DNA of 64,000 nucleotides from the NCBI RefSeq assembly GCF_015291745.1, contig NZ_CP030059.1, positions 5,049,501-5,113,500 on the forward strand. Direction: 5' to 3'. Below, piece after piece: positions 4,863 through 16,686 of this stretch. The notes under the pieces are model-generated. The model worked only from the letters and a program-made list of their open reading frames with translations, made no database searches and had not been told where the DNA came from. Within the stretch, counting starts at the first letter, position 1. Every line of letters begins with the position of its first letter. The position numbers and the translations under genes were made by a program. Source of the DNA: Bradyrhizobium sp. CCBAU 53351 (GTDB lineage: Bacteria > Pseudomonadota > Alphaproteobacteria > Rhizobiales > Xanthobacteraceae).

Positions 4863-5318
4863 TCAGTTCAGCGTCTTGAGAAAAGCGATGACGTCCTCGA
4901 CCTGCGCGGCCGTCAAAATGGATTTGCCGACAAATTCCGGTCGCACCCGGCTGAGGCCTTCGTTCCTGAAGAACGCCGGCATGACCGTGTTGGTGAAGAT
5001 GCGCTTGGGATCGGCGACGATGAGGCGCAATTGCGCCTCGCTGTAGCGGCCGGCGACACCGTCGAGCGACGGACCGAACTCGCCGTGGAATTCCTCGGAC
5101 TTCAGGCTGGTGACCTGGTGGCAGGCCAGGCAATTGCCGAGCGTGCGCGTCAGAAACACCTTCTTGCCGGCGGCGGCATCGCCGGGCGCACCGGTCAGGG
5201 ATTTCGGCAGGGAGTCGTCGACGATATCGAGCTTGATCGGCTCTTTGACAGCCTCTTGCGCGAGACCACCTCCGGCGGACAGACAAAGTGCAAACGCAGC
5301 CGCAAGCGAGCGCCGCAT
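4863..5318 (-). CDS. soxX: SoxX, monoheme cytochrome c subunit of SoxAX
   Basis: With the ATG at 5318 the product has 151 residues, a signal peptide ending at about LAQ (residue 21), one heme site CLACH at residues 63-67 and a likely axial methionine in NTVMPAF near residue 113. The reading frame stays open for 21 codons further upstream. That extension would put charged residues before the signal peptide and overlap the predicted promoter, whereas TAGGA precedes 5318. SoxX accepts electrons from SoxA and passes them to soluble cytochrome c. It is the first gene of the minus-strand sox operon. Confidence 0.93.
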   Translation of the reverse strand: MRRSLAAAFALCLSAGGGLAQEAVKEPIKLDIVDDSLPKSLTGAPGDAAAGKKVFLTRTLGNCLACHQVTSLKSEEFHGEFGPSLDGVAGRYSEAQLRLIVADPKRIFTNTVMPAFFRNEGLSRVRPEFVGKSILTAAQVEDVIAFLKTLN

Positions 5319-5381
5319 GTTTCCTACCCTTATCGCGGGGTGACGCCCGCCTTCGATCACGACGGACTCACGGTCCATCAA

Positions 5382-5424
5382 ATTCAGTTATTATGATATG
5401 TTCATGTGATCGGCGCGGCGTCAA
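5382..5424 (-). promoter_or_regulatory. Predicted soxX promoter with SoxR half-site
   Basis: On the minus strand a -35-like TTGACG (5419-5424) is separated by 17 bases from a -10-like ACATAT (5396-5401), about 78 bases before the soxX ATG. Overlapping it is ATTC-N8-TGAT (5382-5397), which matches one half of the ATTC-N8-GAAT site known for SqrR-type repressors. It also carries the element TTATGATAT (5391-5399) that recurs upstream of soxW. Sequence is seen directly; function is inferred. Confidence 0.5.
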
Positions 5425-5448
5425 GCGAAATTCGACAGACGTCTGCGC

Positions 5449-6063
5449 TCAGCCGTTCGCGGCCAGGAAATCCCGGAAGGAGCCGCGCTCATAAGCACGC
5501 TCTCGCACGAAGCGGAACATCGCCAGGAAGTGCGGCGGCTTGAGATAACCGGGGGCCCGCGCCATCTCGCGCACCATCGCGTCCTTCACGTCGAGGCCGT
5601 CGGCGGATGGCGGAAAGAACTGAAAGGTCGGCGTGAACCTGATGCCGTATTTGCGGGCGAGATCCTTTTCGGCCAATTCCTCGCGGTCGAAATCGGTCAC
5701 CTTGCGCGAGCCGATCAAATTGAGCTGCAACACCTCGAAATTGTCACGGATATAGCTCGCGATGCCGGCATCGGCGAAGTTCACCAGATGCGTCTCGCGG
5801 CAATAGGGGCAGCCGCGCAGCTCCCACATGATGGCGAGGCGCTTGCCGCCCGCCGCCGCGCTCTCCAGGTCCTCGCGCAGATCGAGGAAGCTCTGCAAGA
5901 ACCAGGGCTCGTGATAGAGCCCGTCTTCTCCGACCGTGGGCTCTGCGGCCGCAGCGCGGCGCCCGGCGAGGGCCGCGCCCACAGCGAGTGCAAGGAGGCC
6001 GCGCCGCGTCGGCAGAAGCGATAGCGGGGCTTGGTGCGTCGGAAGATCTTGCGCAATGCTCAT
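5449..6063 (-). CDS. soxW: SoxW, periplasmic thioredoxin
   Basis: About 204 residues with an N-terminal TRRGLLALAVGAALAG export signal and a thioredoxin-fold domain whose active site is CPYC (residues 85-88). SoxW is the periplasmic thiol-disulfide partner kept reduced by SoxV and thought to keep SoxY reactive. Start is uncertain: ATGs at 6063 and 6069 are in frame, neither with a convincing ribosome-binding site, and the frame stays open to 6198 over the divergent gene. I chose 6063 because it gives the most compact signal. It is transcribed towards soxX but separated from it by 130 bp with its own promoter. Confidence 0.85.
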   Translation of the reverse strand: MSIAQDLPTHQAPLSLLPTRRGLLALAVGAALAGRRAAAAEPTVGEDGLYHEPWFLQSFLDLREDLESAAAGGKRLAIMWELRGCPYCRETHLVNFADAGIASYIRDNFEVLQLNLIGSRKVTDFDREELAEKDLARKYGIRFTPTFQFFPPSADGLDVKDAMVREMARAPGYLKPPHFLAMFRFVRERAYERGSFRDFLAANG

Positions 6064-8491: not shown

Positions 8492-9571
8492 ATGCTGAAC
8501 CCCTCGACCATAGCGTTCGCATGCGGGCTTGCGGCCGGCGCCATGCTCGGTGTCGCGGGTCGCGCGGGACGATTTTGCACACTGGCGATGCTCGAGGATG
8601 CGTTCTTCGGAGCGGATCTGCGCCGGCTGAAATCCTTTGCGCTGGCTGCGGCCGTGGCGCTGCTTGCGACCCAGGCGCTCGCCGAGTTCGGCATCGTCGA
8701 TCTGTCGCGGTCGATCTACCTGACGCCGTCGATCGGACTTGGCGGTGCGATTCTGGGCGGGCTGACGTTCGGCATCGGCATGGCGCTGGTCGGCACCTGC
8801 GGCTTCGGCACGTTGGTCCGTGTCGGCGGCGGAGACCTCAGGGCCATCGTGGTCTTTCTCGTGCTCGGCCTCTCGGCGCTCGCGACCATGCGCGGGATCA
8901 CGGGCATGCTACGCGTGACGCTGATCGAACCGTTGTCGCTGCGGCTCTCCGAGGGCAATAACCAGACGCTGACCTCGCTGCTGGGTGCGGGAGGTGGGTT
9001 GCGCGCGCTCCTCGTCGTGTCGATCGCCGCGGCGCTTGCCGTCTGGGCGCTCGCGGACGGCAGGCTGGTCCGATCGCCCAGGCTGCTGGCCTCCGGCCTT
9101 GCCGTCGGCGGCGCGGTCGCATTCGGCTGGTTCGCGACCGGATGGCTCGCCGATGACGAATTCGATCCCGCCCGCGTCTCGTCGCTCAGTTTCGTCGCAC
9201 CGCTCGGCGACAGCATCCTCTACATCGCGACCTTCTCCGGGGCGCGGCTGAATTTTGGCATCGGCTCCGTCGCCGGCGTCGTGGCCGGCTCGTTCGCCGC
9301 AGCGATGCTCGCGCGCGGCTTCCGTTGGGAGGCCTGCGACGACGCGCGCGAACTGAAGCGTCACATGACCGGAGCGCTGCTGATGGGCATCGGGGGCGTC
9401 ATGTCGATGGGGTGCACGATCGGCCAGGGATTGACGGCGTTCTCGACGCTCGCCGTCTCGGCACCGATCACCCTGCTGGCGATTGCCTGCGGAGCCCGGC
9501 TCGGGCTCGAGTTCACGATGACCGGCGAGTGGTGGCCGGCGCTGCGCAGGCTGTTCGGCGCCTCGACGTAG
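8492..9571 (+). CDS. soxT: SoxT, YeeE/YedE-type thiosulfate permease
   Basis: 359 residues, about nine membrane helices. The three cysteine motifs of the TsuA/YeeE family are present: GRFCTLAM (C29), GTCGFGTL (C103) and SMGCTIGQG (C308). In characterised members these cysteines relay thiosulfate through the membrane. A SoxT next to soxR is common, and in some organisms it also affects signalling to the repressor. It lies 71 bp after soxR in the same direction. GGGAGGA sits unusually close to the ATG, so the start could be slightly off. Confidence 0.9.
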   Translation: MLNPSTIAFACGLAAGAMLGVAGRAGRFCTLAMLEDAFFGADLRRLKSFALAAAVALLATQALAEFGIVDLSRSIYLTPSIGLGGAILGGLTFGIGMALVGTCGFGTLVRVGGGDLRAIVVFLVLGLSALATMRGITGMLRVTLIEPLSLRLSEGNNQTLTSLLGAGGGLRALLVVSIAAALAVWALADGRLVRSPRLLASGLAVGGAVAFGWFATGWLADDEFDPARVSSLSFVAPLGDSILYIATFSGARLNFGIGSVAGVVAGSFAAAMLARGFRWEACDDARELKRHMTGALLMGIGGVMSMGCTIGQGLTAFSTLAVSAPITLLAIACGARLGLEFTMTGEWWPALRRLFGAST

Positions 9572-10464: not shown

Positions 10465-11046
10465 CTACGCCCGCACGCGACCGTTCGCCTTGACCACGGC
10501 ATGACCGTTGAGCTTCTTCTTTTTGGCGGCCTTGCTCTTCGAAGCCTTCGCGAGCAGGTTCTTCGCCACCACTTTCTTCGCCTTGCGCGCCTTCACCTTG
10601 GCGGCTTCCGCCCGTGCCTCGGCGCGCAGCTTCTTGCGCTTCTTCTCGCAGGACTCGCATTTGCAGCCGATCGGCTTCAGATAGGCTTTGAAATAGTCGG
10701 TGCCGTAATCGTAGTTGATCTCATCGCCGGGCTCGATGTTCCTGATGGCGCGGATGAACACCTTGCGCTCGCGCGGGCGGACATCGGATTCCGCATTGGG
10801 CCGGCAGGAATGATTGATGTAGCGGGCGAGATTCTTGCGCACCGAGCCGTCGATGGTCCAGCGGCCGTTGAGCTCGAACAGGTATTTGTTCTCGATGTCG
10901 TCCTGCTCGGGAATCCGCGAATCCAGGATCGGTCCGAAATAGCGGATGATCCGGGTACCCTTCTTGATTGGCTTGGTGGCGAAGAGGCCGAGCCCGGTTT
11001 TGGAACGGCCGACGCGATAGGATTTGCTGGAAGCGATGGCTGGCAT
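10465..11046 (-). CDS. SET-domain protein lysine methyltransferase
   Basis: 193 residues. A complete SET domain occupies about residues 8-125: the SAM-binding GLGLFA, the NHSCRPN motif that closes the active-site knot, and EINYDYG with the catalytic tyrosine. A post-SET zinc cluster, CKCESC, follows. The last 60 residues are very rich in lysine and alanine, resembling a DNA-binding histone tail. The SET family transfers methyl groups from SAM to protein lysine. I start at the ATG at 11046; a TTG two codons upstream is also possible. It faces a secreted-protein gene and then a lysine-rich H1-like gene. Confidence 0.9.
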   Translation of the reverse strand: MPAIASSKSYRVGRSKTGLGLFATKPIKKGTRIIRYFGPILDSRIPEQDDIENKYLFELNGRWTIDGSVRKNLARYINHSCRPNAESDVRPRERKVFIRAIRNIEPGDEINYDYGTDYFKAYLKPIGCKCESCEKKRKKLRAEARAEAAKVKARKAKKVVAKNLLAKASKSKAAKKKKLNGHAVVKANGRVRA

Positions 11047-11207
11047 GATCAAGAGAAATGAGGACGCGAACGAGGCACGATGCCTCAGGCGAAGCCGCTC
11101 TTCTAGAACGATTCCGCGCCGCTGTCAGGCCTATCCCATCCCTGTTTGAACCTTGCCCACAATGAAGACGTCTGATGGTACGGAGTTCCCGCAGCGTCAA
11201 AGCCCTC

Positions 11208-11816
11208 ATGATGAACCTTATCACCCGCATTGGCCTCGCCGCCCTGATCAGTTGCATCGGCTTGAACAGTGCAGACGCCCAATCCGTGGGCAGCACCTAC
11301 ACCTCGACAGCGCCAAAGAACTGCCGCTCCATCGGCAAGCCCAGCGAGCTCGACGGCAGCACGACGCGCCTCTGTCCGGGCAAGAACGGCTTCCTGGTGC
11401 TGATTGCCGAGGACGATCTCCGCGAAATCGTCTCGGTCGGCCGCAATCGCAAGCAAGCGGCCGAGGAACCTGCCGCCAAGGTCTGGTTCGCCCCGTTCAA
11501 TTCGTCGGAGACCACGATCGAGTGGCGCGCAATGGGCGCAAAGCCGTTTGCGATCATCCAGCGCTGGCACATCGCCGACAACACGGATCCCGACAAGCAG
11601 GGGCGGCCCAACACCAAGGCCATGCTGGTCGTGACCCGGCTGCCGCCGGGCCCGGTCTGCCACGTCGCCTATGTCGATGCGATCGCCAACCCCACCGCCA
11701 ACGAGCTGGCGCGCAAGGCCGCGGACGATTTCGCCCGCAGCTTCACTTGCGGCAAGGACGAGGTGAAGATCATCGGCACGCGCGGCCGCGCGGTCGAGCT
11801 TGCGACGATGCGCTAG
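11208..11816 (+). CDS. Secreted hypothetical protein
   Basis: About 202 residues with a signal peptide ending near ADAQ, then a mature domain with four cysteines (KNCRS, TRLCPG, GPVCHVAY and FTCGKDE) likely forming two periplasmic disulfides. I do not recognise the family. Two adjacent ATGs (11208, 11211) are possible. The 3' end overlaps the convergent lysine-rich gene by 4 bp, so it separates the SET gene from that gene. Confidence 0.75.
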   Translation: MMNLITRIGLAALISCIGLNSADAQSVGSTYTSTAPKNCRSIGKPSELDGSTTRLCPGKNGFLVLIAEDDLREIVSVGRNRKQAAEEPAAKVWFAPFNSSETTIEWRAMGAKPFAIIQRWHIADNTDPDKQGRPNTKAMLVVTRLPPGPVCHVAYVDAIANPTANELARKAADDFARSFTCGKDEVKIIGTRGRAVELATMR

Positions 11817-12448
11817 GCTCTCACCTTGGCGCGCCGATAGCGCGCCAGCAGCCGCTCGCCCTTCGCGGCAATGCGCCGTGCCGCCGCCACCGTCTTCGGA
11901 ACCGGCTCGCCCCAGGCATGGGCCGACAGCGCGTGCCGGGTCGGCTGCCCCTTCCCATCGACCAACGGCGGCAGTTTCGCGCGGCCATAGAAGCGAACGG
12001 CCCAGCTGCCTTTGCGTCGCATCTCCTGCGGCGTCATCTCTGATTCTGGCTTGGTGACGCCCGGCCGCAAATGAGCGCCCTGCTTGCGGGCGAACGCCTT
12101 GCGGCCCGCCGCGGTCAGACCGCCGCGCGGATCCTTTTCGCGCGCGGATGCGCGGTGCTTCCGGGACTTGGCCTTCTTCGCGTTGCGCTTGCGGGTCTTC
12201 TTCGCGGATGTCGTCGACTTTGCCTTTGACGCCTTCGACTTTGAAGTTTTCTTCGAGCTCTTCTTCTTGGAGGACTTCTTCTTTGCTGCCATGCGCATGT
12301 TGTCCACGAGGTTGGGATAGCGGCGGCCGGCGCGGTGGGCGCGCGCTTTCGCCGCTGATTTCTGCGCGGGACTGAGATGCTTGGAGGACTTGCCGGCCCG
12401 CTTGCGGGGATTTGAGCGTTCCCAGGGAGCGCGCGTTGATTTTGCCAT
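11813..12448 (-). CDS. Lysine-rich histone-H1-like protein with DUF6321-like C-terminus
   Basis: 211 residues. Residues 1-100 are dominated by lysine, serine, alanine and arginine, including runs such as AAKKKSSKKKSSKK, the composition of histone H1 tails. The C-terminal half contains DPRGGLTAAGRKAFARKQ and a later SEMTPQEMRRKGSWAVRFYG. This pattern recurs in rhizobial proteins I associate with DUF6321. It is probably a nucleoid or nucleic-acid-binding protein; the family has no defined function that I know of. Its neighbour 770 bp downstream is a SET methyltransferase, whose natural substrates are lysine-rich tails. Confidence 0.8.
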   Translation of the reverse strand: MAKSTRAPWERSNPRKRAGKSSKHLSPAQKSAAKARAHRAGRRYPNLVDNMRMAAKKKSSKKKSSKKTSKSKASKAKSTTSAKKTRKRNAKKAKSRKHRASAREKDPRGGLTAAGRKAFARKQGAHLRPGVTKPESEMTPQEMRRKGSWAVRFYGRAKLPPLVDGKGQPTRHALSAHAWGEPVPKTVAAARRIAAKGERLLARYRRAKVRA

Positions 12449-12496: not shown

Positions 12497-13228
12497 TCAG
12501 GAGCCGAGCGGCTTCACGGCGATCGGCGCGGTCAGCATCGCCTCGAGCAGGCGTTCGGCCGTCGTTCCCTCGGGCAGCCGCTCCAGGATATCCTTGAGGC
12601 GCCCATCGAGCAGCAGCGTGGTGAAGCCGTGCACCATCGACCAGGCGCGCGCGATCGCGGCGCCCTGGTTCAGCGTCAGCGCATCCTCGCTGATCTGCTC
12701 CTGCCGCATCGCGCCGATGGCATTCGCCAGGCCGGCAAACGAGGCTTCAGCCGCCTCGTGCAGCGAGGGTCTGGAATAATCCAGCCGCTCGGTGCGAAAC
12801 ATGATGCCGTACATGCCGGGATGAGCCTGCGCATAGGCGACATAGGCTTTCGGCCGCGCCAGGGCGCGTTCGAGCGGCGTGCTGGCAGCGTCAGAGGACG
12901 AGGCCATCGCGGCATTGAACTGACGGAAACCGACGGCCGCGAGTTCGCTGAGCAGGCCAGTGAGATCGCCGAAATGATGGGTGGGCGCGGCGTGCGAAAC
13001 GCCCGCCTCGCGTGCCACCGCACGCAATGTGAGGCCCGCGAGCCCGTCGCGTTCCAACACCCGTTCGGCGGCCTGGAGCAGCGCATCGCGTAGGGCGCCG
13101 TGATGATACGGCGTCTCGGCCTTCGCGCTCGCCGTGCGGCGCGAGGTGCGCGATGCCGCGGTCGACGTCGTTCTTTTGGGGGCGCGCGAGCTTCGCGCGG
13201 TTTCGCTCTTGGTGTCGGTCTTCGTCAT
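12497..13228 (-). CDS. TetR-family regulator
   Basis: 243 residues. After a basic, serine-rich leader of about 38 residues comes a TetR DNA-binding domain (HHGALRDALLQAAERVL, then LRAVAREAGVSHAAPTHHFG) and a helical ligand-binding domain typical of the WHG-type TetR C-terminus. It is divergent from the carotenoid oxygenase gene. The shared region holds a 19-bp palindrome that recurs before 15142, so I infer that this protein binds both. The extended basic leader is longer than usual and may reflect an alternative start. Confidence 0.9.
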   Translation of the reverse strand: MTKTDTKSETARSSRAPKRTTSTAASRTSRRTASAKAETPYHHGALRDALLQAAERVLERDGLAGLTLRAVAREAGVSHAAPTHHFGDLTGLLSELAAVGFRQFNAAMASSSDAASTPLERALARPKAYVAYAQAHPGMYGIMFRTERLDYSRPSLHEAAEASFAGLANAIGAMRQEQISEDALTLNQGAAIARAWSMVHGFTTLLLDGRLKDILERLPEGTTAERLLEAMLTAPIAVKPLGS

Positions 13229-13250
13229 TTACAAGCTATATGACGCAATA

Positions 13251-13319
13251 TTGACAGTGTAAAGATTTCACTTGACCGGAATGGCAAGTGGCGCTATCTG
13301 ATCTTTACGCTGTAAAGAT
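13251..13319. promoter_or_regulatory. Promoter and TetR-type operator before the carotenoid oxygenase
   Basis: A 19-bp inverted repeat ATCTTTAC-N3-GTAAAGAT lies at 13301-13319. A single half-site GTAAAGAT lies at 13259-13266. TTGACC (13272-13277), a 17-bp spacer and TATCTG (13295-13300) form a promoter whose -10 abuts the palindrome. The same order and spacing are found at 15063-15122. Confidence 0.75.
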
Positions 13320-13333
13320 AGGGAGGATATGCC

Positions 13334-14731
13334 GTGCAGCACGACGCCATCGCCGAGCGCCGCAACAATATCGCGCCGATCCCGTTCGAAGCGGACGCAC
13401 CATTCTTGCCGGTCATCGGCGAATTGCCGCGCGATCTGAACGGGGTGCTCTATCGCAACGGTCCCAATCCGCAGTTCTCTTCGCCGGGCGCGCATTGGTT
13501 CGTCGGCGACGGGATGCTGCACGCCTTCCACCTCGAGAACGGCCGCGCCAGCTACCGCAACCGCTGGGTCCGCACGCCGAAATGGCTTGCCGAGCACGAT
13601 GCCGGCCGCGCTTTGTTCGGCGGCTTCGGCCGCAAGCTGCCCGATGCCCCGGCGGATCTCACCGACGGCGGCGTCGCCAACACCAACATCGTCTTCCATG
13701 CCGGCAAGCTGCTGGCGCTGGAAGAGGCGCATCTGCCGACCGAGATCGAGCCGGGCACGCTGGCGACGCGCGGCTATCACAATTATCAGGGCCGTGTCGC
13801 CGGCAGCTTCACCGCGCATCCGAAGATCGACCCCGTCACCGGCGAGCTCGTGTTCTTCGGCTACAACGCCGCGGGTCCGTTGACGCCCGCCCTCTCCTAC
13901 GGCTCGATCGATGCCTCCGGCAAGGCGACGCGCTTCGAACGGTTCGAGGCGCCCTATGCCAGCATGGTGCACGACTTCATCGTCACCGCGAACCATGTGC
14001 TGTTTCCGATCCTGCCGATCACCGGCAGCATGGAGCGCGCCATGAGCGGACGGCCGCCCTACGCCTGGGAGCCGGACAAGGGCGCCTATGTCGGGGTGAT
14101 GAAGCGGAACGGCACGGCCAAGGACATCGTCTGGTTCCGCGGTGAAGCCTGCTACGTCTTCCACGTCATGAATGCGTGGGAGGACGACAACCGCATTGTC
14201 GCCGACGTCATGCAGTTCGAGGAAGCGCCGCTGTTTCCGCATCCCGACGGACGGCCGACCGATCCGGAGAAGTCGCGCGCCCGACACTGCCGCTGGACCT
14301 TCGACCTCTCGGGCAATACCGATCGCTTCCAGCAGACCTATCTCGACGATCTCACCGGCGAATTCCCGCGCATCGACGACCGCCGCGCCGGGCTGAAGAA
14401 TCGTCACGGCTGGTACGCCTGCGCCAATCCGAAACTGCCGATGTTCGGCGCCCTCGCCGGCGTCGTCCATGTCGACGACAACGGCAGGCGGCTCGGCCAT
14501 TATCTGCTGCCCGCCGGCGACACCATCTCCGAGCCTGTGTTCGTCGAGCGCTCGAAGGATGCGAGCGAGGGCGATGGCTGGCTGCTCGCGGTGGTCTGGC
14601 GCGCGCGCGAGAACCGCAGCGACCTCGCGGTGTTCAACGCCACCGATGTCGAAGCGGGCCCCGTCGCGCTGGTGCAGCTCGGCCATCGCGTGCCCGACGG
14701 GTTTCACGGCAATTGGGTGGGCGCGCAGTAA
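13334..14731 (+). CDS. Carotenoid oxygenase (RPE65/lignostilbene dioxygenase family)
   Basis: 465 residues, matching the family. The early motif LPRDLNGVLYRNGPNPQF is diagnostic. Candidate iron-binding histidines lie in TAHPKID, MVHDFIV, YVFHVMNAWED and the C-terminal GFHGNWV. These enzymes cleave double bonds of carotenoids, apocarotenoids or stilbenes with a non-heme iron in the cytoplasm; the substrate cannot be told from sequence. GTG start, with GGGAGGA about seven bases upstream. It is followed by small membrane-protein genes. Confidence 0.92.
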   Translation: MQHDAIAERRNNIAPIPFEADAPFLPVIGELPRDLNGVLYRNGPNPQFSSPGAHWFVGDGMLHAFHLENGRASYRNRWVRTPKWLAEHDAGRALFGGFGRKLPDAPADLTDGGVANTNIVFHAGKLLALEEAHLPTEIEPGTLATRGYHNYQGRVAGSFTAHPKIDPVTGELVFFGYNAAGPLTPALSYGSIDASGKATRFERFEAPYASMVHDFIVTANHVLFPILPITGSMERAMSGRPPYAWEPDKGAYVGVMKRNGTAKDIVWFRGEACYVFHVMNAWEDDNRIVADVMQFEEAPLFPHPDGRPTDPEKSRARHCRWTFDLSGNTDRFQQTYLDDLTGEFPRIDDRRAGLKNRHGWYACANPKLPMFGALAGVVHVDDNGRRLGHYLLPAGDTISEPVFVERSKDASEGDGWLLAVVWRARENRSDLAVFNATDVEAGPVALVQLGHRVPDGFHGNWVGAQ

Positions 14732-14802
14732 CGCCCGTCATGCCGCGGCGCGCCATTTGGCGCGCCCGGAGCCACAGCACAGTCGTGTTACGAAGAGGTC
14801 GT

Positions 14803-15066
14803 ATGCAGATGCCCTCAATCACCGCAGACTTCCTCGCCGTCCTCGCCCTGATCTGCGCCGCGCTCGCACTCGAGGTGGCCCATCTGCGGCGGAGCGGCCA
14901 GGTCATTTTCAATGGCGGCATCCTGCTCGCCCTCGGCCTCGCGATCATCTGCGCGCTGCCTCTCTTGTCGGGGCTGCCCTGGGCGGAATTGGCTGACGAG
15001 GCATTCGACCAAGCCATTGCAACGCTTCAGCTTTTGCACATCGCCTACGTCATTTTGACACTGTAA
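14803..15066 (+). CDS. Small membrane protein (87 residues)
   Basis: The ATG at 14803 follows AAGAGG. The product has two hydrophobic segments (about residues 7-24 and 35-55) and an amphipathic end. Unrecognised family. It lies 71 bp after the carotenoid oxygenase gene and is probably co-transcribed. Its stop codon overlaps the GTAAAGAT half-site of the next promoter, so the next control region starts exactly at the gene end. Confidence 0.55.
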   Translation: MQMPSITADFLAVLALICAALALEVAHLRRSGQVIFNGGILLALGLAIICALPLLSGLPWAELADEAFDQAIATLQLLHIAYVILTL

Positions 15067-15122
15067 AGATTTTGCTTGACCCCGCTCCACGCCTGAATTA
15101 TTTATCTTTACATCGTAAAGAT
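15063..15122 (+). promoter_or_regulatory. Second promoter/operator of the TetR-type set
   Basis: A GTAAAGAT half-site (15063-15070) is followed by TTGACC (15076-15081), a 17-bp spacer and TATTTA (15099-15104). Then comes the palindrome ATCTTTAC-N3-GTAAAGAT (15104-15122). Only the palindrome's three central bases differ from the copy at 13301-13319. The following gene starts at 15142. Confidence 0.75.
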
Positions 15123-15141
15123 CGGCCTTACCGAGGTGGCC

Positions 15142-15717
15142 ATGGCGATTTTCCTGATTCTCGCGCCCTACGGCGCCTACACGTTCCTGATGCTGGTGAC
15201 CTCGGCCACGGTGAGCGTGTTCGCGGCCTCCGCGATCTGCCTCACCACCGTCGCGATCGATGTGGCACGCGGCCGCTCGGTGAAGACCCTGGCCGCAGGG
15301 TCGGCGGTCGTATTCGCCGCCATCGGGCTCTATCTCGCGCTGCTCGATCCGCAGCTCGGCACGCTCGGCGTCAAGCTGTCGGTTGATATCGGCATCTTCA
15401 TCATCTCGCTCGGCTCGATGCTGATGCGCCGCCCCTTCACGCTGCAATATGCGCTGGAAGCGGTGCCGGCCGAGACCGCGGCGATGCCCGGCTTTCTCTA
15501 TGCCAATTACGTCATCACCGGCGCCTGGACGGCGGCCGCGCTGTTGATGGCGGCCGCCAATCTGGTGCTGCTCTACGTCCCTGGCCTGCCGCTCTGGTCA
15601 AGCCTTGCCGTCGCCTTCGCCGCCCGCAACAGCGCGATCTACTTCACAAAGTGGTATCCCGAGTATCGCCAGATCAAGTACGGTACGCCCGCCCGCGCAT
15701 TGCCCAACGCCCGCTGA
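15142..15717 (+). CDS. Membrane protein distantly related to IspZ/YciB
   Basis: 191 residues with about five membrane helices. The segment DPQLGTLGVKLSVDIGIFIISLG aligns loosely with the IspZ-like core of the next gene (both have DP, then K-x-S, then an E-x-VP end). I start at ATG 15142 with GAGGT five bases upstream; an in-frame GTG at 15136 lies inside that signal. It has its own operator-bearing promoter, pointing to control with the carotenoid oxygenase. Function unknown. Confidence 0.7.
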   Translation: MAIFLILAPYGAYTFLMLVTSATVSVFAASAICLTTVAIDVARGRSVKTLAAGSAVVFAAIGLYLALLDPQLGTLGVKLSVDIGIFIISLGSMLMRRPFTLQYALEAVPAETAAMPGFLYANYVITGAWTAAALLMAAANLVLLYVPGLPLWSSLAVAFAARNSAIYFTKWYPEYRQIKYGTPARALPNAR

Positions 15718-15729
15718 ACAGGATTGACG

Positions 15730-16284
15730 ATGAAGGACGTATTCGCCCGCCTCGCCTCCGATCTCTTCTCCGCCATCCTCTTCCTGGTCATCTATCTCGT
15801 CACCGACAACGTCATCCTGGCAACCTCGGTGGCGGTCGCCGGCGCGGTCGCGCAGGTGATCTACGCCCGCATCAAGGGGCAACAACTCAATTACATGACC
15901 TATGCGAGCCTCGCGCTCGTCGTTGGCCTCGGCACGATCACGCTGCTGACCAACGATCCTCGCTTCATGATGGCAAAGCCCTCGATCGCGCATTTCGCGA
16001 TCGGCGCGATCATGCTCAAGCGCGGCTGGATGCTGCGCTACATGCCGCCGCTCGTCGTCGAAACCGTTCCGGAATATGTGACGGCTGCGGGCTATGCCTG
16101 GGCGGTGCTGATGTTCGTGATCGGCGCCGGCATGATCGTGGTCGCCTCCACCGGCGATCTGAAACTGTGGGCATTCTACCTCACGGTGGTCGCGGGCGGC
16201 GCCAAGATCCTCGCCTTTGCCGTGCAATATGTCGTCCTCCGGCTCATCGTCACCAGCCGCCGGCGGGCTGCCGCCCGCGCCTAA
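15730..16284 (+). CDS. IspZ/YciB-like inner-membrane protein
   Basis: 184 residues with about five membrane helices. The central DPRFMMAKPSIAHFAIGAIM resembles the conserved FxKxKPTI region of IspZ (YciB), an inner-membrane protein linked to septation and envelope synthesis. It differs enough that it is probably a paralogue rather than the housekeeping gene. The ATG has AGGA six bases upstream. It starts 12 bp after the preceding related membrane protein, so the two are a tandem pair. Confidence 0.75.
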   Translation: MKDVFARLASDLFSAILFLVIYLVTDNVILATSVAVAGAVAQVIYARIKGQQLNYMTYASLALVVGLGTITLLTNDPRFMMAKPSIAHFAIGAIMLKRGWMLRYMPPLVVETVPEYVTAAGYAWAVLMFVIGAGMIVVASTGDLKLWAFYLTVVAGGAKILAFAVQYVVLRLIVTSRRRAAARA

Positions 16285-16389: not shown

Positions 16390-16686
16390 ATGGCCGTAGA
16401 CGGCAACTGGAATCTGACGATGACGACGCCGATGGGCGAGCGCCAGGCGACGCTGAGCCTGAAGGCGGCGGGCGGCACGCTCACGGGCACGCAGGGTGCG
16501 GAAGGTAATACCACCGAGATTTTCGACGGCACCGTCTCTGGCGACAACGTCTCCTGGAAGGTCTCGATCGACAAGCCCATGCCGCTCACGCTCGAATTCA
16601 CCGGCACCGTCTCCGGCGACAGCATCAACGGCGAGATGGGGATCGGCCCGATGGGCAGCTTCCCGTTCACGGGCGCCCGCGCCTAA
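16390..16686 (+). CDS. Small beta-rich hypothetical protein (98 residues)
   Basis: ATG at 16390 with GGGAGACGG just upstream. The product alternates short strands and turns with repeated TxTGTxSGDxxxGxxGxG-like motifs (TLTGTQGAEGN, FDGTVSGDNVSW, FTGTVSGDSINGEMG). This suggests a small beta-barrel. No signal peptide. Function unknown to me. It lies 14 bp upstream of the SH3-domain gene. Confidence 0.7.
   Translation: MAVDGNWNLTMTTPMGERQATLSLKAAGGTLTGTQGAEGNTTEIFDGTVSGDNVSWKVSIDKPMPLTLEFTGTVSGDSINGEMGIGPMGSFPFTGARA

Follow-up and report, generated by a model that had tools for sequence, protein, structure and literature searches.

Here we describe a gene group of Bradyrhizobium sp. CCBAU 53351, located at positions 12,497 to 16,284 of a stretch of 64,000 nucleotides of contig NZ_CP030059.1 (hereafter the window, whose numbering is used throughout), in which a TetR-family gene, a divergent gene for an enzyme of the carotenoid cleavage oxygenase family and two genes for membrane proteins, M1 and M2, stand beside two promoters of the same design. 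We consider it quite likely that they form a local, ligand-controlled regulon, in which the TetR protein would govern the oxygenase gene, M1-M2 and its own gene. The preliminary description of this DNA had already proposed that the divergent TetR controls both transcripts, and this is very probably the case: a promoter type with paired operators tracks the TetR protein across genomes, stands before both genes, is lost together with M1 and covaries with the recognition helix of the protein. The operators, their pairing, their conservation and their tie to the TetR are apparent from the comparison of sequences.

Two promoters with paired operators

The palindrome ATCTTTAC-N3-GTAAAGAT occurs without mismatch at 13301-13319 and 15104-15122, its central three bases alone differing (GCT vs ATC), and a TTGACC-17-TATNTN promoter precedes each copy; all this had been noted before and proves exact, the -10 hexamers being TATCTG and TATTTA. 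Further upstream, a GTAAAGAT box had been reported for each promoter as a lone half-site. The boxes, at 13259-13266 and 15063-15070, do end 34 and 33 bp before the respective palindromes, but they are not lone, being the right halves of second, full operators with two mismatches (13248-13266 and 15052-15070). With up to three mismatches allowed, the window holds four matches to the palindrome, against 0.01 expected, and none of 100 shuffles gave more than one; GTAAAGAT occurs six times, against 0.26 expected.

Both promoters are built as a sandwich, composed of an upstream operator (O1), the -35 hexamer, 17 bp, the -10 hexamer and a downstream operator (O2), where O1 sits just above the -35 and O2 starts directly after the -10 or one base inside it; the two operators lie 53 or 52 bp apart, i.e., about five helical turns. 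In the oxygenase promoter (TTGACC-17-TATCTG, 13272..13300, plus strand, hexamers at 13272 and 13295), O1 is ATATTGACAGTGTAAAGAT (13248..13266, two mismatches, altered left half) and O2 is ATCTTTACGCTGTAAAGAT (13301..13319), while the membrane-gene promoter (TTGACC-17-TATTTA, 15076..15104, plus strand, hexamers at 15076 and 15099) is framed by ATTTTGACACTGTAAAGAT (O1, 15052..15070) and ATCTTTACATCGTAAAGAT (O2, 15104..15122). For tetR itself we propose a promoter read from the sequence, TTTACA-17-TATAGC on the minus strand (13235..13263), with its -35 within O1. TATA stands at the corresponding -10 place in 124 of 136 unique promoter segments adjacent to a TetR gene, versus 6 of the 108 others, and tetR is probably autoregulated through O1. 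This operator is retained before M1 where no tetR adjoins, and is therefore not merely a tetR operator.

Conservation of the operator pair

The pair was sought, with O1-O2 distances of 30 to 75 bp allowed, in the window and 114 further loci (34 fetched by place and 80 by TetR search, with some genomes in both), as well as in 40 loci obtained by TetR match. The loci of the TetR search are the best 80 of 162; across these 80 the TetR is 74-93% identical, and all belong to Bradyrhizobium save one, L087, assigned to Bradyrhizobiaceae (loci and genomes are named here by our own numbers, L and G). The scan returned 271 pairs; the gene served could be told for 262 of them (131 for the oxygenase, 131 for M1), and 9 stayed without assignment. 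Spacing is 51-55 bp in 260 of the 262 assigned pairs, duplicates included, and 42 bp, one helical turn less, in the other two (L058 and L148), which are not sisters in a TetR tree that resolves poorly there; a pair outside the scanned set, in L284, has 56 bp.

Five spacing groups comprise 8 or more unique sequences, and in these the average over O1 and O2 is 1.75-1.96 bits per base, versus 0.19-1.26 over the 40 bases that precede them. TTGAC itself hardly ever changes, and the spacer varies in sequence and hardly in length. All 244 unique promoter segments have C at position 3 of O2 and G at its position 17; in O1, the G of position 17, on the right, is shared by 243 of 244, whereas at position 3, on the left, 243 of 244 have T, A or G. 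Because O1 is asymmetric by rule while O2 is fully C/G at the same positions, we read O1 as an operator kept weak and O2 as a strong one.

The genome of the strain has 8.34 Mb in two contigs. When the sandwich was searched as a composite pattern among 391 genomes of the family, it was found in 148: 103 of 107 in the genus and 45 of 284 outside it, never more than twice per genome, and the reversed pattern, used as a control, gave zero in every row. A wider regulon was thereby rejected, as no genome of the 391 exceeds two matches. Four genus genomes (G270, G346, G362 and G425) gave no match to the composite pattern, the first of which nonetheless bears a pair before M1 (L291) that the pattern overlooks. 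At the level of the order, the pattern occurs in 10 of 297 genomes, all of the same family, and in 0 of 286 genomes from other families. The exact palindrome is present in 34 of 36 genus genomes, our own included, and in 0 of 24 others of the order. A scan of the genome and its relatives had been suggested beforehand, with absence of the site upstream of orthologous genes as the outcome that would speak against the proposal; the site is conserved there.

The link to the TetR protein was followed in a survey of 296 family genomes, 269 of them non-genus, with a threshold of more than 180 bits. A match was found in 55 of the 269, and all 45 non-genus genomes with the sandwich fall among these 55 (compared by hand), while the pattern occurs in 0 of the remaining 229 non-genus family genomes, 15 of which lie outside the TetR survey. 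As to the ten genomes with a TetR orthologue and no pattern, four hold a pair in a form that the pattern misses (L183, L284, L288 and L289), one has an altered pair (L285), two have decayed sites (L186 and L189), two matches lie at a contig edge (L193 and L287), and the last (L286) showed no site in the vicinity of its TetR match.

A second link concerns M1. The comparison covers 101 unique loci of the genus that have both the TetR and the oxygenase, after exclusion of 9 duplicates and of 4 loci that were incomplete or of another kind. M1 and its operator pair are both kept in 91 of them and both gone in 10; the pair beside tetR is present in all 101.

The TetR protein and its recognition helix

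The TetR-family repressor (12497..13228, minus strand, 243 amino acids, recognition helix EAGVSHAAPTHHF) is of the family expected beforehand, scoring 36.9 bits against PF00440 (cut-off 24) and 53.1 bits against PF13305 (TetR_C_33; cut-off 26.8). Before the helix-turn-helix it carries a tail of about 40 residues rich in lysine and arginine, and the net charge of the last 30 residues before that domain is +4 to +9 in 17 orthologues; this basic tail could add a contact to DNA.

In 152 aligned rows, TetRs at standard sites have the helix EAGVSHAAP[T/A/M]HHF, the other positions being at least 97% constant. Two diverged proteins depart from it: where the others have a residue-His pair, their helix reads Lys-Asn. 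The TetR of genome G211 (48-49% identical) has the helix TVGVSHTAPKNHF, and its sites, ATATTTACACTGGAAATAT and ATATTTCCACTGTAAATAT, lie 52 bp apart around an ATTGAC -35; that of G080 (about 52% identical) has EAGVSHAAPKNHF (...APKNHF), and its sites, ATGTTGACGATGTAAATAT and ATGTTGACATCGTCAATAT, likewise flank an ATTGAC, at a distance of 53 bp from each other. At position 3 of their eight half-sites, A is found in 6 and G in 2, never C. The pairing of an altered helix with altered sites, seen in two cases, is suggestive of a tie between the sandwich and the TetR protein.

The membrane genes as the steadier partner

The products of M1 (15136..15717, plus strand, 193 amino acids, or 191 from the ATG at 15142) and M2 (15724..16284, plus strand, 186 amino acids) had both been taken for IspZ-like proteins. 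This stands for M2, an IspA/IspZ (YciB)-like protein with 52.9 bits against PF04279 (cut-off 28.7), which reaches 47.3 of the 165.2 bits demanded by the IspZ equivalog TIGR00997. It does not stand for M1, which matches no Pfam family, PF04279 included, and gives only a sub-threshold match to a VC0807-family profile of NCBIfam. Homologues of M1 carry the label "intracellular septation protein" in some databases. M1 as a paralogue of M2 found no support, the profile comparison giving a probability of 0.7% (8 and 8 sequences).

A TetR tree was built from a chosen sample of 61 loci, among which 35 hold the oxygenase and the membrane genes, 20 the membrane genes only, 3 the oxygenase only and 2 neither, the last one being the G211 module; a contig edge affects one of the three and one of the two. 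The oxygenase state changes at least eight times on this tree, which does not tell the direction, and remnants attest some losses, namely an oxygenase fragment in L190 and a leftover O1 in L291. Since 20 loci have the membrane genes alone, against 3 with the oxygenase alone, and the oxygenase state changes so often, the membrane genes are the steadier partner of the TetR.

The same counts favour the alternative of a switch chiefly for membrane stress, in which the TetR would sense a membrane-active amphiphile, M1-M2 would be the true output and the oxygenase a lineage-variable accessory. We give it tentative credit only. Against it, the TetR-oxygenase pairing recurs in the diverged module of G211 with another membrane protein, of DUF6790, and genus-wide the promoters of the oxygenase and of M1 are conserved to the same degree.

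Around the membrane genes, some further observations were made. In one other genus (L180, L181, L184 and L185), M1 is separated from the second operator pair by a short IspA-like open reading frame, read in L180 (region 9054-9448); its match (L180:9054-9377) reaches 22.9 bits, under the cut-off of 28.7. In 4 of 5 loci of that genus a degenerate extra site, with 2-4 mismatches, stands just before M1. After M2, nearly all genus loci have a gene for a 98-residue protein without Pfam family (16390-16686 in the window), which was set aside as an operon member, being apart from M2 in some relatives, and is probably an independent neighbour.

The oxygenase transcript and the diverged systems

An open reading frame for 87 amino acids (14803..15066, plus strand) follows the oxygenase gene and ends with a stop codon that falls within the O1 of the membrane-gene promoter. 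It has no match to PF01124, the profile of the MAPEG family. Because it resembles the first 35 or so residues of a full-length MAPEG protein and then departs, we read it as a truncated MAPEG remnant, in which case the oxygenase operon would once have held a MAPEG gene. A full-length relative (L063:10152-10562) scores 67.9 bits against PF01124 (cut-off 23.4), and such a gene lies 42-166 bp after the oxygenase in 32 of 163 loci (some genomes counted twice), all 32 in the genus.

The diverged systems have other partners. In G211 (L277:9850-12747) the TetR, whose next best match among 248 family genomes is 57% identical, forms a module with a DUF6790 membrane protein and a carotenoid oxygenase, whose genes the sandwich with the two altered operators faces. 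In G080 (L285:5008-6450) the sandwich faces a gene for a peroxiredoxin of the Ohr family, an organic-hydroperoxide reductase (5578-6006, minus strand; TIGR03561, 159.6 bits, cut-off 88.85), about 250 bp from O2, and then one for a DUF2306 membrane protein (5008-5436, minus strand). All three systems pair an enzyme handling oxygen or peroxide with a small membrane protein. This lead, drawn from two genomes, directs attention to membrane compounds of a lipophilic and perhaps oxidised nature.

A response to lipid oxidation, with the TetR sensing organic hydroperoxides or reactive carbonyls, would agree with the Ohr-family partner and with the MAPEG gene that follows the oxygenase in those 32 loci, some MAPEG enzymes having peroxidase activity. 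It is nevertheless a doubtful alternative, given that the Ohr case comes from one genome, with a TetR only about 52% identical and a gene at some distance from O2.

The oxygenase itself (13334..14731, plus strand, 465 amino acids) had been recognised as a carotenoid oxygenase, and PF03055 confirms it with 451 bits; the four histidine contexts (TAHPK, MVHDF, VFHVMN and GFHGNW) are conserved. A response to a phenolic stilbene, lignostilbene or flavonoid, with a stilbene-cleaving oxygenase, might be expected from the fact that its best NCBIfam profile is a lignostilbene dioxygenase (LSD), NF053778, and that genistein-tied TetRs are discussed for B. japonicum in the portion of PMC4070704 drawn on here. 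However, the 422.6 bits obtained are far below the equivalog cut-off of 800; NF053780, also for lignostilbene dioxygenase, gives 342.8 of 650 bits, and the profile for the dioxygenase cleaving 8'-apo-carotenoids at 13,14 gives 309.4 of 675. Moreover, on an alignment to 6xm6 with positions counted by hand, Tyr-101 and Lys-134 of LSD correspond to Phe98 and Glu130 in the window, while a phenylalanine considered along with these two is kept. Glu130 has its equivalent in all but one of 124 unique sequences (123; the odd one is probably a distant copy in L217), and Phe98 in at least 115 of the 124 (six commonest motifs listed). According to excerpts of the respective papers, Tyr-101 and Lys-134 hold the 4-hydroxyl of stilbenes (PMC8191317), and their equivalents in MapADO, Y136 and K169, are essential (PMC12308385). 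A stilbene-cleaving enzyme was thus rejected as first choice, the stilbene ligand suggested earlier is weakened, and a response of this type appears unlikely. No crtI-family desaturase reaches its cut-off in the genome, the best scoring 84.9 of 238.1 bits, and a carotenoid substrate would therefore probably come from outside.

A second carotenoid-oxygenase gene of the genome (L276:7458-8849; C2:629493-630755) is located on the 979-kb contig, which has no palindrome at up to two mismatches; its reading frame is apparently interrupted in the conserved 5' part, and its neighbours look catabolic by eye. In L208 (1108-2841), near the main M1-M2 locus, a second, distant TetR_C_33 regulator (31%) is divergent from a second oxygenase (42%).

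Weighing the regulatory reading

Several points weigh against control of both transcripts by the TetR protein, and against a common purpose of the two. The promoter segments were collected under a mismatch limit, which favours conserved sites, and the -10 is general only in its TA. At orthologue loci, sites have decayed to four mismatches (L186 and L189), and none was found in L286. The ten loci without M1 need not be independent; a single O1-like site survives in L088 and in L130, and a fragment of M1 in L130 and in L142. The altered helices of G211 and G080 may go back to a common source, and standard O1 operators, too, can have A at position 3 of the left half (83 of 244). The genome has a third perfect palindrome (L005:9366-9384; C1:141365-141383), and we infer that the oxygenase and the membrane pair serve one process from their shared control.

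That another regulator binds the palindromes, the neighbouring TetR being a bystander, would suit this third site, around which no relative of the regulon proteins, the TetR included, was found in 19 kb by a search with a positive control; it is very unlikely all the same, as each of the 45 non-genus family genomes bearing the promoter has a TetR orthologue, and the altered-helix TetRs stand at altered sites. That the TetR controls itself only, with constitutive downstream genes, would explain the overlap of O1 with the tetR -35 and is hardly credible, since a full operator pair before M1, 1.8 kb from tetR, disappears with M1.

Two extra sites came from a search for the perfect palindrome. The third site of the genome is single, overlaps a TTGACA-17-TAAAGA promoter and precedes a small open reading frame, with a phage-integrase-family gene nearby (10515-12266, minus strand; PF00589, 30.0 bits); the operator may have been picked up by a mobile element. 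In G017, on contig C1 and far from the main locus, two similar genes of the M20 peptidase family lie side by side, one of them preceded by a full sandwich (L068:7306-7377; O1 with three mismatches, a perfect O2, 53 bp); here a new gene has apparently captured the promoter.

Proposed mechanism and ligand

In the preferred reading of a ligand-controlled TetR regulon, dimers of the repressor would occupy, in the absence of ligand, O1 and O2 of two nearly identical promoters. O2 would cover the start region from the end of the -10, and O1 the place just above the -35; since both operators are about five helical turns apart, the dimers would share one face of the DNA, where they could box in or exclude the RNA polymerase. 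On the tetR side, O1 would cover the -35 of tetR, so that the repressor would limit its own synthesis. Binding of the ligand would loosen the TetR, and tetR, the oxygenase gene (with that for MAPEG in many relatives) and M1-M2 would be expressed together; a strong O2 combined with a weak O1 might make this release steep as ligand rises.

The system would serve to deal with a membrane-partitioning lipophile: the oxygenase would split a C=C bond to carbonyls, an intact MAPEG protein would conjugate or reduce the products, and the IspZ-like proteins would protect the envelope. As for the ligand, an isoprenoid or apocarotenoid is a tentative guess and an oxidised lipid a doubtful one, the former estimate having been lowered and the latter raised because of the Ohr-family protein of G080. 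On this basis, one might imagine, with due reserve, a dedicated switch with which rhizobia and their kin respond to polyenes dissolved in the membrane and to the products of polyene oxidation; here the TetR would sense an apocarotenoid or other isoprenoid of plant or microbial origin, or an oxidised lipid, the oxygenase would cut it, MAPEG or Ohr would handle reactive products, and proteins of the IspZ kind would mend or stiffen the membrane.

Significance and comparison with known systems

The regulon is sharply defined: throughout Bradyrhizobium and in part of the family, a genome usually has two of the promoters and, with them, four operators whose places are mapped. IspZ/YciB-like proteins are poorly understood, and a ligand-controlled pair would offer a handle on when cells need them. 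We know of no other ligand-controlled switch for such proteins, so that the polyene-sensing switch, if true, would be the first as far as known. The identity of the inducer would tell on what class of substrate an orphan group of carotenoid-type oxygenases acts; it might also bring to light a compound of plants or microbes, or a kind of membrane damage, with which rhizobia deal.

In the openly licensed literature, searched by titles and the beginnings of abstracts, no description of the TetR/oxygenase/M1-M2 system was found, nor anything on MAPEG together with a carotenoid oxygenase. The type of regulation is a known one; what is new, as far as that literature goes, is the set of genes and its layout.

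In the same genus, FrrA and the TetRs of the BjG30 locus are likewise TetR regulators, tied to plant compounds (in their case genistein) and located beside RND efflux pumps, as the consulted section of PMC4070704 has it; the present system differs in its targets, which are an oxygenase and IspZ-like proteins. With LSD and NOV, the oxygenase of the window shares the carotenoid oxygenase family and the four histidine contexts, but it lies below the equivalog cut-offs and has both Tyr-101 and Lys-134 replaced. Likewise, M2 resembles septation protein A/IspZ/YciB in exceeding the PF04279 cut-off, while it falls under the IspZ equivalog cut-off, M1 has no Pfam family, and the two are here paired under a TetR. 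A regulatory likeness exists to the tet operators of Tn10, two of which lie at a divergent promoter, where the repressor controls itself and its target. The same arrangement would hold between tetR and the oxygenase gene; unlike in Tn10, a second, distant promoter copies here the two-operator layout without a divergent gene.

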